From positions 1-64,000 of the forward strand of contig NZ_MPCX01000002.1 in assembly GCF_001874145.1 (NCBI RefSeq): a stretch of 64,000 nt of DNA. Reading direction: 5' to 3'. This document shows positions 378 through 44,010 of the stretch, piece by piece. The stretch's first letter is position 1. Each line of letters starts with the position of its first letter. Origin of the DNA: Lacinutrix sp. MedPE-SW (lineage in GTDB: Bacteria; Bacteroidota; Bacteroidia; Flavobacteriales; Flavobacteriaceae). The notes under the pieces were generated by a model. The model searched no databases and was not told where the DNA came from. It saw only the letters and a list, made by a program, of their open reading frames with translations. The position numbers were made by a program, and so were the translations under genes.

Positions 378-1490
378 ATGAATTTATCGTACTGGGAAAT
401 AAAAACATGGTTAACTAACATAGATTACACAATAGTTGGAAGTGGAATTGTAGGTATAAACTGTGCTTTACAATTAAGAAACCGTTTTCCAAAAGCTAAA
501 ATTTTAATTTTAGAAAAAGGAATTTTACCACAAGGAGCAAGTACAAAAAATGCTGGATTTGCTTGTTTTGGAAGTTTAAGCGAAATTATAGACGACCTTA
601 ACTCTCATACTAAAATTGAAGTAATAAATTTAATAAAGAAAAGAATTAAAGGTCTTAATTTATTAAGGGAGACACTTAGTGACAAAGCTATTGACTATCA
701 AAACAATGGTGGCTTTGAATTGTTTAGTAAGCAAGACAATAAATTATTACAAGATTGCTTGGATAGAAGAAATGAAATAAACACACTATTAAACCCAATA
801 TTTAATCAAGACATATTTAAAATTCAAAAAAATAGTTTTGGTTTTAAAAATATTGAAGAGCATTATATTTTCAATGCTTTTGAAGGTCAAATAGATACTG
901 GTAAAATGATGAATGCTTTGTTAAAAAAAGCACAGATAAACGATATTAAAATTTTAAATAATATTCAAATTGAAGAATATGTGACAACCAATTCTTTAGT
1001 TAAAATAAAAACAAACCAAGTAGACTTTAATACTTCAAAACTATTGATAGCCACAAACGGTTTTGCTTCAAGACTAATTAATGAGAAAGTTGAGCCAGCA
1101 AGAGCACAAGTTTTAATTACAAAACCAATAAAGAATTTAAAAATAAAAGGTACTTTTCATTTAGATAAAGGATATTATTATTTTAGAAATATAGAAAACA
1201 GAATACTATTTGGAGGCGGAAGAAATTTAGATTTTAAAACTGAAAACACAAGTGTATTTGGACAAACAGAAGTTATTCAAAACAAACTAGAAACACTTTT
1301 AAAAACTACTATTCTACCAAATACATCTTTTGAAATAGCACATCGCTGGAGTGGCATTATGGGTATTGGCAAACAAAAAAAACCCATTGTAAAACAAATA
1401 GAGAATAATGTTTACTGTGGCATAAGATTAGGAGGCATGGGAGTTGCAATAGGTAGCTTGGTTGGTAAAGAATTAGCAGATTTAGTTTAA
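378..1490 (+). CDS. FAD-dependent oxidoreductase of the D-amino acid oxidase (DAO) family
   Basis: Predicted 370-residue soluble flavoenzyme. A Rossmann FAD motif lies near residues 17-30 (TIVGSGIVGINCAL), followed by the acidic end of the second strand (ILEKG), the DAO-type segment GASTKNAGFAC and a C-terminal FAD-binding end (GGMGVAIGSLVGKELA). Members of this fold oxidise amines or amino acids to imines; which substrate is used here cannot be read from the sequence. ATG at 378 is the only good start and gives the usual family length. The stop is directly followed by the ATG of the GreA-like gene at 1491, so the two are almost certainly co-transcribed. That pairing is recalled from other Flavobacteriaceae but does not explain the function. 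Confidence 0.8.
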   Translation: MNLSYWEIKTWLTNIDYTIVGSGIVGINCALQLRNRFPKAKILILEKGILPQGASTKNAGFACFGSLSEIIDDLNSHTKIEVINLIKKRIKGLNLLRETLSDKAIDYQNNGGFELFSKQDNKLLQDCLDRRNEINTLLNPIFNQDIFKIQKNSFGFKNIEEHYIFNAFEGQIDTGKMMNALLKKAQINDIKILNNIQIEEYVTTNSLVKIKTNQVDFNTSKLLIATNGFASRLINEKVEPARAQVLITKPIKNLKIKGTFHLDKGYYYFRNIENRILFGGGRNLDFKTENTSVFGQTEVIQNKLETLLKTTILPNTSFEIAHRWSGIMGIGKQKKPIVKQIENNVYCGIRLGGMGVAIGSLVGKELADLV

Positions 1491-1940
1491 ATGAAAATAA
1501 AAGAACAGCTCTATAAACAATGTAAAAGTTTTATTGAAAACCGCTTAAAAACAGTACAAGAAACTATAGCCGGTATTCAAGAATCACTACTATCTGAAAC
1601 TAAAAGTAGTGCAGGAGACAAACATGAAACTGGTAGAGCAATGCTACAATTAGAGCGTGAAAAAGCGGGTAAGCAATTAGCCGAAATTCAAAAAACAAAT
1701 TTAATTTTAAGTAAAATAGATTACCAAAAAAGCGCTAATAAAGTTAGCCTAGGTAGCATAATTTACACAAATAAAGTAAACTATTTTATAGCAATTAGTG
1801 CCGGTGTTATTGAGTATAATAATGAGAGCTTTTATGCCATATCTGCAAATACACCAATTGCACAACTTTTAATGTCTAAAGTTGAAGGTGACACTGTTGC
1901 TTTTAGAGATAATAATTTTACAATCACCAAAGTACTATAG
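1491..1940 (+). CDS. GreA/GreB-like protein (flavobacterial, often mislabelled 3-oxoacyl-ACP synthase)
   Basis: A 149-residue protein with an N-terminal helical half (about 1-75, charged, coiled-coil-like, with SSAGDKHETGRAMLQLE) and a small beta-rich C-terminal half. This is the layout of the transcript cleavage factors GreA/GreB and their relatives: a coiled-coil finger plus an FKBP-like domain. Similar short flavobacterial proteins carry the label 3-oxoacyl-ACP synthase in databases, but nothing here resembles a thiolase fold; the name should not be propagated. It begins at the base after the oxidoreductase stop, so translation is probably coupled. An RNA polymerase secondary-channel role is inference from fold only; the canonical acidic tip of GreA is not clearly present. 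Confidence 0.6.
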   Translation: MKIKEQLYKQCKSFIENRLKTVQETIAGIQESLLSETKSSAGDKHETGRAMLQLEREKAGKQLAEIQKTNLILSKIDYQKSANKVSLGSIIYTNKVNYFIAISAGVIEYNNESFYAISANTPIAQLLMSKVEGDTVAFRDNNFTITKVL

Positions 1941-34131: not shown

Positions 34132-34740
34132 ATGGCTTTTGAATTACCGAAATTAAAATATGCATACGACGCATTAGAACCAAATATCGATGCGCGTACA
34201 ATGGAAATACATCACTCAAAACACCACAATGGCTATACAACCAAATTAAACAATGCTATTGAAGGTACAGATTTAGAAGGAAAAACTATAGAAAATATTC
34301 TTTTAAATCTTGATATGGAAAACAAAGCTGTTAGAAATAACGGTGGTGGTTTTTATAATCACTCTTTATTTTGGGATGTAATGAATCCTGAAGATAAAGG
34401 ACGTTTATCTGGAGAATTAAAGGATGCTATAGAAGCAGAATTTGGCTCTTTTGAAGCTTTTAAAGATGCTTTTAGCAAAGCAGCTGCAACACAGTTTGGT
34501 TCTGGTTGGGCATGGCTATGCGTACACAAAGGAGGAAAAGTAGAAGTTTGCTCGACACCAAACCAAGACAACCCATTAATGCCAGGTGTAACTTGTGGAG
34601 GAACACCAATTTTAGGATTAGATGTATGGGAACACGCTTATTACTTAAACTACCAAAACAGAAGACCAGATTACATTGAAGCTTTCTTTAAAGTAATTAA
34701 CTGGAACGAAGTTGAAAGACGTTATGCAGAAGCAAAGTAA
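34132..34740 (+). CDS. sodA: Superoxide dismutase, Mn/Fe family (Mn-type by sequence)
   Basis: Dismutates superoxide in the cytosol. The 202-residue protein has the four metal ligands: His27 in EIHHSKHH, His in FYNHSLFW, and Asp/His in LDVWEHAYY. Metal preference follows the glutamine position. Here the Gly-Gly-Gly of [10 protein letters not shown] and the Gln in TPNQDNPLM indicate a Mn-type active site; Fe enzymes carry the Gln in the earlier helix. Many Bacteroidetes enzymes of this group are cambialistic, so iron use is not excluded. No signal peptide. Has its own terminator (34756-34793). Confidence 0.95.
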
Positions 34741-34755
34741 TATACTTTAACTTAT

Positions 34756-34793
34756 AAAAAAAGCAGTTTCTAAATTTAGAAACTGCTTTTTTT
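34756..34793 (+). terminator. Intrinsic terminator of sodA
   Basis: Stem AGCAGTTTCT / AGAAACTGCT (34762-34771 with 34778-34787), loop AAATTT, A run before and T run after. It lies 21 bp after the sodA stop. Confidence 0.92.
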
Positions 34794-34820
34794 ATACTTG
34801 TTATTTAAAATTTTGACAAT

Positions 34821-34892
34821 AAAAAAGCCGGACGAGAGTCCAGCTTTTTTGCCCCAAATCTACCATGAACTTAACCTACTTATGTTATGGTA
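34821..34892 (-). ncRNA. Candidate small RNA, copy 1 (hairpin - linker - terminator)
   Basis: Read on the minus strand: a hairpin TACCATAAC...GTTcATGGTA (34892-34884 with 34870-34861, one bulged C), loop with GTAGGTTAA, then the linker GATTTGGGGC. An intrinsic terminator AGCTGGAC-TCTC-GTCCGGCT with a six-T tail ends at 34821. A -7-type box TATATTTG lies at 34904-34897, about five bases before the first hairpin; no -33 TTG is found. It is nearly identical to copy 2 at 35048. The terminator stem has one G-U pair on the minus-strand RNA, which would be a C-A mismatch on the plus strand. Neither gene direction nearby needs a terminator here, since sodA already has one. Confidence 0.55.
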
Positions 34893-35047
34893 AGCTCAAA
34901 TATAACGAGAACAAATTTGATTTATTGTTTTTTTTAGATAAAGAGTAAAAAAATCTGATTAAGTGAATTTTATCGATACAACCGAATGCGTTAACACTCA
35001 ATAGGTTGAAATGCGTATTTTAAATGAGTATGTTATGCGTTTTAAAT
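34893..35047. other. Spacer between the two small-RNA candidates
   Basis: No ORF. A+T rich, with ATGCGT three times (34986-34991, 35011-35016, 35035-35040) and the box for copy 1. It shows no extended similarity to the flank of copy 2 apart from ACAAATTT, present near both copies on the upstream (right) side. Confidence 0.4.
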
Positions 35048-35118
35048 AAAAAAGCTGGACGAGAGTCCAGCTTTTTTGCCCCAAATCTACCATGAACTTA
35101 ACCTACTATGTTATGGTA
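35048..35118 (-). ncRNA. Candidate small RNA, copy 2 (hairpin - linker - terminator)
   Basis: Differs from copy 1 by one substitution in the terminator stem and one T fewer in the first-hairpin loop. The terminator stem is perfect here: AGCTGGAC / GTCCAGCT with a TCTC loop on the minus strand and six T at the end (35048). The first hairpin is TACCATAAC / GTTcATGGTA (35118-35110 with 35097-35088). A -7-type box TAAATTTG is at 35141-35134. It lies 84 bp beyond the purF stop, so it could also serve as the purF terminator and be released from the purF 3' UTR. Confidence 0.55.
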
Positions 35119-35201
35119 TATTTAAATTTATAACAAATTTAGATTCCTTGGAAATGTTTTAGATTAAAGTCGTTATTTATGGTTTAACTGATAAACATTG
35201 G

Positions 35202-37100
35202 TTAATAAGCACGCTCTTTATTTCCTTCAAAAAAGTTAATAAATGCTCGGTTTACAACTCTATTTCCTCCAACGGTTGGATAATTTCCTGTAAAGTACCA
35301 ATCGCCTAAATTTTTAGGACAAGCTTTATGTAAATTTTCCACTGGTTGGAATATTATTTCTACTTCTGCATTTACAGTTTCATCACTTAACAATTGTGAG
35401 ATTTTAGCCGAAATTTCTTCGGTTGTAAATTGATCGTAAATTTCATTTACAAAGTTCTTTACATCTTTATCTTCTAAATGTTCTTGAGCTTTACATTTAT
35501 GGTATACAGTTTCTACTAAATCATATTTTCCAGCTTCTTTTAACAATTCTAAAGCAGCATTAAAAGCTACTAATGTTTCTAAATTTGCCATATCAATACC
35601 ATAGCAATCAGGAAAACGAATTTGTGGAGCAGATGATACAACCACTATTTTTTTAGGATGTAGCCTATCCATCATTTTAATAATACTCTTTTTTAGTGTT
35701 GTACCACGAACAATACTATCGTCAATAATTACTAAATTATCTGTAGGTTTAATTACACCGTATGTAACATCATATACGTGAGCAACCAAATCATCTCGGC
35801 TACTATCTTCAGTAATAAACGTTCTTAATTTTACGTCTTTAATTGCTATTTTTTCTATTCGAGGTCTTTCTTCTAAAATATCTATAACCTGTTGTTTGCT
35901 TAATTTACCGTCACCATCTAATATAGCTTGAGTTTTACGCTCATTTAAATGCTCTTCTACAGTTTCTATCATACCATAAAAAGAGGTTTCTGCTGTATTT
36001 GGAATGTAAGAAAAAACAGAGTTTGCCGTATCGTTATTAATAGCTTTTAAAACTTTTGGCATTAAAAGTCTACCTAACATTTTACGTTCTTGATAAATTT
36101 CAGCATCACTACCTCTAGAAAAATAAATACGTTCAAACGAGCATGCTTTGCGTTCTAAAGGTTCTAGAATTTCTTCAATAGATACTTCTCCAGATTTTTT
36201 AGTAATAATAGCGTGACCTGGATCTAACTCTTTAACATCGTTAAAATCTACATTAAAAACAGTTTGTATTACTGGTCTTTCTGATGCTACAACAACGACT
36301 TCATCATCTTTATAATAATATGCTGGACGAATTCCTGCCGGATCTCTTAATACAAAAGAATCTCCGTGACCAAGCAATCCTGCCATTGCATAACCACCAT
36401 CCCAGTTTTTAGCAGCTCTACGTAATATTTTTGCTACGTTTAAACGCTCTGCTATTAATGGTGAGCATTCATTTTTTTTGTATCCTTCTTTTTTTAATTT
36501 TTTATAAATTTTACTAACAGCATCATCAAGAAAATGTCCAATTTTCTCCATTATAGTAATAGTATCTGTGTACTCTTTTGGGTGCTGACCAAGCTCTACT
36601 AGATTAGCAAATAATTCTTTAACATTGGTCATGTTAAAATTACCTGCTAAAATTAGGTTTCTATGTTGCCAATTATTTTGGCGTAAAAAAGGATGTACAC
36701 TTTCTACACTGTTTTTACCAAACGTGCCATAACGCACATGACCTAAAAGTACTTCTCCTATATATGGTATTTTACTTTTTTGCAGTGCTACACTTTCATT
36801 ATACTCTGGATGTGCAACAAGTTCATTATTTATACGCTCATTAATTTGGGCAAATATATCTTGAATAGGTTGCTGCTGTATAGATCTAACGCGACTTATA
36901 TAACGTTCTCCTGGTTTAGTATCTAGTTTTATACTAGCAAAGCCTGCACCATCCTGACCTCGATTATGCTGCTTTTCCATCATTAAATACATTTTATTTA
37001 CTCCGTAAAATGCACTTCCATATTTTTCTTTATAGAATTCTAATGGTTTTAAAAGTCTAATATGTGCAATACCGCACTCGTGTTTTAAAGCATCACTCAT
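35202..37100 (-). CDS. purF: Amidophosphoribosyltransferase-type enzyme (long Bacteroidetes form)
   Basis: First committed step of purine synthesis: PRPP plus glutamine to phosphoribosylamine. At 632 residues it is well longer than the roughly 500-residue E. coli PurF. The Ntn nucleophile is Cys9 in KHECGIAHI, implying removal of an eight-residue propeptide. The glutaminase core contains QHNRGQDGAGFAS and GHVRYGTFG; the PRPP loop is VIIDDSIVRGTTLKKSI. Extra length is in a 100-residue C-terminal extension after the transferase domain (HKCKAQEHLEDKD to NKERAY). That extension has no known role. It lacks an obvious promoter box, and copy 2 of the small-RNA element follows its stop. Confidence 0.9.
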   Translation of the reverse strand: MSDALKHECGIAHIRLLKPLEFYKEKYGSAFYGVNKMYLMMEKQHNRGQDGAGFASIKLDTKPGERYISRVRSIQQQPIQDIFAQINERINNELVAHPEYNESVALQKSKIPYIGEVLLGHVRYGTFGKNSVESVHPFLRQNNWQHRNLILAGNFNMTNVKELFANLVELGQHPKEYTDTITIMEKIGHFLDDAVSKIYKKLKKEGYKKNECSPLIAERLNVAKILRRAAKNWDGGYAMAGLLGHGDSFVLRDPAGIRPAYYYKDDEVVVVASERPVIQTVFNVDFNDVKELDPGHAIITKKSGEVSIEEILEPLERKACSFERIYFSRGSDAEIYQERKMLGRLLMPKVLKAINNDTANSVFSYIPNTAETSFYGMIETVEEHLNERKTQAILDGDGKLSKQQVIDILEERPRIEKIAIKDVKLRTFITEDSSRDDLVAHVYDVTYGVIKPTDNLVIIDDSIVRGTTLKKSIIKMMDRLHPKKIVVVSSAPQIRFPDCYGIDMANLETLVAFNAALELLKEAGKYDLVETVYHKCKAQEHLEDKDVKNFVNEIYDQFTTEEISAKISQLLSDETVNAEVEIIFQPVENLHKACPKNLGDWYFTGNYPTVGGNRVVNRAFINFFEGNKERAY

Positions 37101-43914: not shown

Positions 43915-43988
43915 GGGCGTTACCTAAAGGTCGCGCTATCCACTATATCTTTTGTAAAACAAAAGGATGCCGTTACTATCGCTAACGC
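43915..43988. repeat. Palindromic intergenic repeat element
   Basis: About 74 bp, more G+C rich than its surroundings. Outer arms GCGTTA (43917-43922) and TAACGC (43983-43988), an inner hairpin CTTTTGT / ACAAAAG (43949-43955 with 43959-43965), and the sequences GGTCGCGCTATCC and GATGCCGTTACTATCGC between. I recall near-matches to this design, GGGCGTTACC...GGTCG.GCT.TCC...GGATGCCG...TAACGC, as a multi-copy intergenic element in flavobacterial genomes. This is the only copy in the window. Confidence 0.6.
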
Positions 43989-44010
43989 AAACTAAGGCAA
44001 GTAATAAACT

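Follow-up and report, generated by a model that had tools for sequence, protein, structure and literature searches.

Tandem sibling small-RNA genes between purF and sodA in Lacinutrix: a probable LytTR-activated array with predicted feedback and surface-locus targets

Two nearly identical repeats located between purF and sodA in Lacinutrix sp. MedPE-SW are, with strong support, sibling small-RNA genes encoded on the minus strand, as judged from promoter, terminator and conservation signals. The reading that we favour, and consider probable, is that they form an array activated by a LytTR-type response regulator, that the RNA feeds back on this activator, and that it restrains a surface locus linked to type IX secretion. 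A first-pass annotation of the same DNA had recognized the pair; the multi-copy nature of the array, its LytTR-type sites and its likely targets go beyond that annotation.

Two sibling units between purF and sodA

The window is the whole stretch of DNA that was analysed, 64,000 nucleotides in length, and all positions below refer to it unless a locus is named. The transcribed units and their flanking genes are as follows, with the basis of each assignment where it applies.

34821 to 34891, minus strand: small RNA copy 1, predicted start A34891, 3' end in the T-tract at 34821
35048 to 35117, minus strand: small RNA copy 2, predicted start A35117, 3' end in the T-tract at 35048
34862 to 34891, minus strand: 5' hairpin of copy 1, its loop AUAAGUAGGUUAA a predicted seed (folding, homologue alignment, seed tests)
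35089 to 35117, minus strand: 5' hairpin of copy 2, its loop one A shorter (folding)
34851 to 34861, minus strand: linker AGATTTGGGGC of copy 1, the second predicted seed (alignment, decoy tests)
35078 to 35088, minus strand: linker AGATTTGGGGC of copy 2 (alignment, decoy tests)
34821 to 34850, minus strand: intrinsic terminator of copy 1 (covariation in homologues)
35048 to 35077, minus strand: intrinsic terminator of copy 2 (covariation in homologues)
35202 to 37100, minus strand: purF, sharing the strand of the array and lying upstream of it (best NCBIfam model purF)
34132 to 34740, plus strand: sodA, superoxide dismutase, convergent with the array (best NCBIfam model Mn superoxide dismutase)

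Both gene names rest on scores below the NCBIfam cut-offs (purF, 123 bits against 350; Mn superoxide dismutase, 242 bits against 363). Directly 3' of sodA, a perfect 22-bp inverted repeat (34753-34796) constitutes the terminator that had already been attributed to this gene, and it is probably bidirectional.

The two units, each of about 71 nt, are direct copies with 98% identity over 63 ungapped nucleotides and a start-to-start distance of 227 bp. They differ by one substitution in the terminator stem and by one A in the loop, which confirms the near-identical tandem pair with one substitution and one indel reported earlier; the loop of copy 2 is the sole case lacking this A among 74 distinct sequences. 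Read 5' to 3' on the minus strand, both copies consist of a hairpin, an unpaired linker and an intrinsic terminator. In the structure imposed on the alignment, the 5' stem has one bulge and eight pairs that are conserved; the minimum-energy fold adds pairs to these. Folding of the minus strand yielded -25.4 and -24.3 kcal/mol (z -4.8 and -4.6), and 0 of 200 shuffled sequences were equally stable. Since the plus strand of both units folds comparably (z -5.80 and -6.75), the strand is not decided by folding alone, and the minus strand, as proposed in the first-pass annotation, is assigned on account of the promoter, the 3' U-tract and the homologues.

Conservation and covariation in the Flavobacteriaceae

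Within its own genome the unit matches at this place only. It was found in 13 of 13 genomes of the genus and in 240 of 299 Flavobacteriaceae genomes (E ≤ 0.01, a few matches being weak), the figure for good-quality genomes of the family being 212 of 249. A covariance model built from 51 copies gave matches of at least 70 bits inside the Flavobacteriaceae only; outside the family, no match among 196 sampled genomes of the order reached 70 bits, the best scoring 41.7 bits. These weak outside matches, some of which fall on both strands of one place, are taken as chance resemblance of terminators. A 22-base core of the unit occurs in at least 118 stretches of named genomes, and the genera bearing it include, among the matches listed, Maribacter, Zobellia, Winogradskyella, Allomuricauda, Aquimarina and Salinimicrobium, together with two Flavobacterium species. 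The suggestion that the two copies may simply be recent is unsupported, given a family that spans the Flavobacteriaceae.

In the 51 aligned copies the 5' domain CCATAACATAAGTAGGTTAAGTTCATGGTAGATTTGGGGCAAAAA, about 45 nt in length, is nearly invariant. The 13-bp terminator stem varies yet stays paired, with 9 of its 13 pairs changed on both sides. Overall, 96.3% of cells were paired; pairing and both-side changes were each matched by 0 of 500 shuffles, and the number of pair types by 1 of 500. The first-pass annotation had named a lack of compensatory changes as counting against its proposal, and such changes are present in the terminator stem. The 5' stem hardly varies: 6 of its 8 pairs never change, and covariation therefore neither proves nor disproves that helix. 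The earlier proposal of a sibling pair of small RNAs is strongly supported at the sequence level by a predicted promoter 5' of each copy, by nine compensated terminator-stem pairs and by a loop and linker that are invariant across many genera.

A coding function of the unit is unlikely, the ATG frame in the 5' domain being broken by an AAGATTT insertion and by an A-run of varying length. Phage, plasmid or viral origin was likewise rejected, with 0 matches in viral contigs (searched with an exact 34-base pattern), phages and plasmids. In one genome with no BLAST match to the small RNA (G010, locus L049), the sodA-purF intergenic region holds a terminator with GATTTGGGG in its stem, possibly a relic of the array or a product of chance.

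Promoters and LytTR-like sites

Four upstream elements were assigned in the window, the boxes from an alignment of upstream regions and the tandem sites from their 20-bp period.

34897 to 34904, minus strand: -7 box TATATTTG of copy 1
35123 to 35130, minus strand: -7 box TAAATTTA of copy 2
34934 to 34965, minus strand: tandem LytTR-like sites of copy 1 (34954-34965 and 34934-34945)
35159 to 35190, minus strand: tandem LytTR-like sites of copy 2 (35179-35190 and 35159-35170)

Promoter statistics were computed on 213 non-redundant upstream regions out of 300 distinct copies. These share a -7 box of the form TAnnTTnG (T 84%, A 87%, T 99%, T 92% and G 68% at the specified positions) and a predicted start at a purine (A 73%, G 26%) directly before CCATAAC. 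Promoters of this phylum typically show a -33/-7 layout. Across the 213 regions TTTG at -33 was not conserved, little was conserved beyond about -75, and a weakly T-rich stretch at -37 to -34 (T 53-64%) could represent a degenerate -33 box. A promoter box had been noted before each copy; at copy 2 that claim needs correcting, the conserved position reading TAAATTTA and TAAATTTG lying farther upstream, outside that position. The alignment supports a promoter belonging to each copy directly 5' of the predicted RNA and, with both copies so equipped, lends no support to the idea that one of them derives from the purF 3' UTR.

Between -75 and -36 the same 213 regions contain a direct repeat with a 20-bp period. 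An iterated matrix scored above 5 at the proximal site in 165 of 213 regions, at the distal site in 155 and at both in 140. Its top log-odds letters read CCGTTCGTC, and a refit on both sites reads CAGTTCATC. The AlgR consensus is CCGTTCGTC, and CCGTTCATC is one natural AlgR site, as given in the available part of PMC4064291. The array repeats are direct, of about 9 bp, 11 bp apart and AlgR-like in their core, and they fall within the published range of 11-13 bp, the repeats of LytTR systems being mostly 12 bp apart with a minority at 11 or 13 according to the available part of PMC6193735. The bare tandem pattern is unspecific, because it gave 7 matches in the own genome against 11 for a reversed control; own-genome matches to tandem sites were used only when orthologues support them, and the threshold for a tandem site was the 99% null value of 10.7. 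Together, the site statistics argue for LytTR control of the predicted array promoter.

Predicted targets

The genome holds six LytTR genes. One of them encodes an orphan response regulator and sits between priA and rpsF, both of whose names pass the NCBIfam cut-offs; its leader is the first predicted target. The 7-mers CTTAACC and CCCAAAT, which are complementary to the small-RNA loop and linker, occur in 26 and 4 of 30 leaders of close orthologues, respectively, and thus together in 30 of 30, as compared with 7 of 738 other leaders read. Furthermore, in 24 of the 30 close regulators the start codon lies inside ATGTTATG, which is complementary to the 5' end of the small RNA, CAUAACAU.

Pairing energies of loop and linker were compared with those of 200 shuffled decoys, relative to 200 background leaders, using 40 of 134 sodA, 40 of 75 purF and 200 of 767 other leaders; orthologues below 50% identity or with discordant starts were omitted, so that 25 distinct regulators remained among the close orthologues and 15 of 20 among the distant ones. 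For the loop, decoys pairing at least as strongly with the regulator leaders numbered 2 of 200 (3 of 200 for the close and 0 of 200 for the distant orthologues alone), against 97 of 200 on sodA and 158 of 200 on purF leaders, the targets and 7-mers having been picked out by eye before being tested on those very leaders, of which the orthologous ones are not independent. Pairing of the linker with the regulator leaders was not significant (32 of 200 decoys at least as strong, and 43 of 200 for the close and for the distant orthologues alone), the control values being 103 of 200 for purF and 200 of 200 for sodA. The own-genome regulator leader carries CCCAAAT only, with a duplex p of 0.11. The statistics over the orthologues suggest that the small RNA may pair with the leader of this regulator.

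Exact 9-mer matches in the own genome fell outside leaders. For TTAACCTAC there were 18 non-self sites, two of them in first codons (L231, L232); for CCCCAAATC there were four, three antisense to predicted genes and one intergenic. The intergenic site belongs to an element comprising a hairpin and a terminator (L221, about 1448-1573, minus strand; G000:C17:77616), in which 12 nt are complementary to the small-RNA linker and which is flanked by what we take to be an ECF-sigma-like gene and an ABC-transporter-like gene. Among the loci read, this element is common to only two close relatives, in one of which it is altered, and the others share the terminator alone; it is a possible sponge RNA.

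The second group of predicted targets lies in a surface locus (L362, 2319-8298). Its genes encode two secreted-looking proteins of 150 and 433 aa, a CHU_C protein and a PorP/SprF protein, the last containing a long stretch of repeats in which alanine, glutamine and lysine abound. The 433-aa product, whose gene is here called the surface gene, has no Pfam family; in this genome the 150-aa gene lies 5' of the surface gene, and the CHU_C gene, encoding a type IX secretion signal protein, and the PorP/SprF gene lie 3' of it. Tandem sites scoring above 10.7 were present in 20 of 30 surface-gene loci and 12 of 30 upstream-gene loci. For the surface gene, 0 of 200 decoys paired at least as strongly as the loop and 0 of 200 as the linker; for the upstream secreted gene, the linker again gave 0 of 200, and the loop was not significant at 34 of 200. 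Exact 7-mers were found in 3 of 30 surface-gene leaders and 1 of 30 upstream-gene leaders, the latter sample omitting L362 and L363 as second readings of genomes already present. Predicted pairing thus beat the decoys with at least one seed in three gene families, and the small RNA may pair with mRNAs of the surface locus as well as with the regulator leader.

A LytTR-activated, conserved small RNA might instead act mainly on other mRNAs, or titrate an RNA-binding protein, with the complementarity to the regulator leader being secondary. The nearly invariant stretch of some 45 nt, stem included, is more than short seeds seem to need, and the surface gene has a close orthologue (E<1e-75) in 37 of the 120 genomes sampled and a match at E ≤ 1e-15 in 102 of them, whereas the small RNA is nearly family-wide. 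The decoy tests, and a leader match in every one of the 30 close regulator orthologues, make this explanation somewhat unlikely in our judgement, and we retain the regulator and the surface locus as the predicted targets.

A candidate activator linked to rpsF

The regulator between priA and rpsF is also the most likely activator of the array, as the motif, its co-occurrence with the small RNA and a like site at its own gene suggest. A tandem site precedes the regulator gene, at about 80 bp from the start codon, in 30 of 30 close orthologues (the own one included), and rpsF was present in the fetched locus of all 30 close orthologues and of 18 of the 20 distant ones. Among the latter, just 1 of 20 has a tandem site above 10.7 before the gene, and autoregulation via this site may therefore be a feature of one clade.

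A regulator orthologue was detected in 222 of 240 genomes with the small RNA and in 7 of 59 without it (Fisher 8e-35, uncorrected for phylogeny or for incomplete genomes), at a cut-off of E<1e-50 that was set after seeing the list and by which G166 (E 1.3e-50) counted as lacking the gene. Accordingly, a close orthologue is missing in 18 of the 240 positive genomes, and the negative genomes that keep it are G010, G112, G136, G151, G199, G242 and G293. In the last of these, a genome that is 76% complete, the stretch read of the regulator leader holds neither 7-mer.

It is conceivable that the small RNA is real and that its activator is another LytTR protein, or a regulator of another kind, with the rpsF-linked one co-occurring by shared ancestry. 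The six LytTR genes of the genome, the lack of phylogenetic correction in the co-occurrence and the distant orthologues, mostly without a tandem site before the gene, all fit such a scenario. We nevertheless judge it unlikely, given the like tandem site before the rpsF-linked regulator in all 30 close orthologues and given that, for the other five LytTR genes of the genome, no upstream site above 10.7 is listed on the coding strand (L215 reaching 9.9). The rpsF-linked regulator thus remains our candidate activator.

Arrangement of the array across loci

Among the matches listed, which cover at least 118 named loci, all copies lie on the purF strand in 102 of 102 loci with purF and opposite to sodA in 93 of 93 loci with sodA. 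Both genes were found in 81 of the loci listed, of which 79 are bracketed by the two. Within these 79 bracketed loci, again among the matches listed, one copy is present in 29, two in 16, three in 18, four in 10, five in 5 and six in 1, with a median copy spacing of 206 bp. At least 2.5 kb were read without encountering purF in 5 of the listed loci and without encountering sodA in 11, and this neighbourhood is therefore usual, not fixed. L087 lacks both: this record of an uncultured Flaviramulus carries a copy (4543, plus strand) with neither purF nor sodA in the 8 kb read and hence at a different genomic place. In five loci of the Lacinutrix group (L009, L063 and L066-L068), purF is adjacent and no sodA lies within the locus; sodA is located on the same contig, at a distance of 31-38 kb in four of these loci and of about 212 kb in the remaining one. 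The sodA of L051 (G306) shows two TGA and three TAA codons on read-through, and may be a pseudogene or an assembly error.

That the units act mainly as a tandem set of transcription terminators separating purF from sodA, two convergent genes, and yield no stable RNA, is highly improbable. Each unit does end in an intrinsic terminator, and convergent genes usually flank the locus. Against this reading, the units have their own predicted promoter, a start purine, activator-like tandem sites, up to six copies and a loop and linker that do not vary; sodA is followed by a terminator of its own; and among the matches listed the units persist in 11 loci without sodA despite at least 2.5 kb on that side. 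A mere duplicated terminator, which the first-pass annotation had raised against its own proposal, is likewise unlikely in view of those promoters and of the invariant loop and linker.

A proposed circuit

In the favoured reading of a LytTR-activated array, each unit would be an independently transcribed, non-coding, trans-acting small RNA of about 71 nt, as promoter, terminator and family-wide conservation with covariation indicate. A LytTR response regulator, once active, would switch the array on at the two direct repeats 20 bp apart, giving rise to a single short RNA in many copies. Through its loop CAUAAGUAGGUUAAG and its linker GUAGAUUUGGGG, this RNA would base-pair with mRNAs in the leader and around the start codon and so block translation initiation. 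The regulator's own mRNA would be repressed, providing negative feedback on the activator, as would two genes of the secreted-protein / CHU_C / PorP-SprF (type IX secretion) locus; the predicted targets themselves carry LytTR-like sites. Tandem copies would presumably raise the dosage of the small RNA. The sequence itself shows the units, their promoter and terminator features, their conservation and their usual synteny; statistics back LytTR control and pairing with the regulator leader and the surface locus as probable; and transcription, the sign of regulation as repression, a dosage role of copy number and a physiological signal are presumed in this scheme.

A broader version, which we offer tentatively, would have the regulator activate this family-wide, chromosomal array, itself and the surface locus, with the small RNA silencing the regulator and the surface locus where translation starts and a copy number of 1-6 setting the dosage of surface remodelling across genera. 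The candidate activator, the conserved DNA sites and the predicted target leaders render the whole surface/secretion circuit testable, and the array may be a case of small-RNA dosage tuned via tandem copy number.

Comparison with known systems

In the region of the units, every Rfam match at E up to 10 scored below the gathering score of its family, and none suggested a credible family. Across the whole window that score was reached only by a tRNA and by Flavo-1 RNA (RF01705), the latter at 43925-43997 on the minus strand with 54.4 bits, where 42 is the gathering score. Flavo-1 is a flavobacterial RNA of similar length located elsewhere in the window, but it differs in fold and sequence and is not listed for 34740-35200 even at E up to 10, in agreement with the first-pass annotation, which could not match the pair to this family.

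OmrA and OmrB of Escherichia coli are adjacent, near-identical small RNAs that are activated by OmpR, use Hfq, and target surface-protein mRNAs together with the mRNA of their own regulator. The array resembles them in its adjacent near-identical copies and in its predicted response-regulator activator and predicted surface-protein and own-activator targets; it differs in having a LytTR-type instead of an OmpR-family regulator, 1-6 copies and a seed in a 5' hairpin loop, and no sequence relation is claimed. By analogy, the array may work like OmrA/OmrB and other multicopy small RNAs governed by response regulators. Tandem near-identical copies are also known for PrrF1/PrrF2 (Pseudomonas; Fur) and LhrC (Listeria; LisRK), which share this layout with the array and differ from it in their regulators; the PrrF model scored 17.8 bits in the array region, on the plus strand, against the 90 needed.

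Within the Bacteroidota, FopS and GibS of Bacteroides (RF04319) are multicopy small RNAs with a terminator that act near the start codons of surface-protein mRNAs, in the available part of PMC11697453. FopS differs from the array in its single-stranded 5' stretch and canonical promoters, the word 'tandem' being absent from the main text of PMC11697453 as far as that text is available, and copy 2 scored 16.0 bits with RF04319, short of the gathering score of 56. Rfp18 and other Rfp small RNAs of Flavobacterium psychrophilum are, like the array units, conserved and structured flavobacterial small RNAs (PMC9723704, available part). Rfp18 was the sole flavobacterial small RNA with a target test in the literature searched, which consisted of open-licence papers seen in part; its pairing region is the third stem-loop (PMC9723704), whereas the array unit has two, a comparison made by description only. 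No description of a small RNA at the purF-sodA locus was found in the open-licence papers, and the available parts of two studies leave room for a homologue, which Rfp1-89 (PMC9723704) or the F. columnare candidates (PMC5395568) may include. Set apart from Rfp18 by description only, the array most likely represents a new small-RNA family of a known kind.
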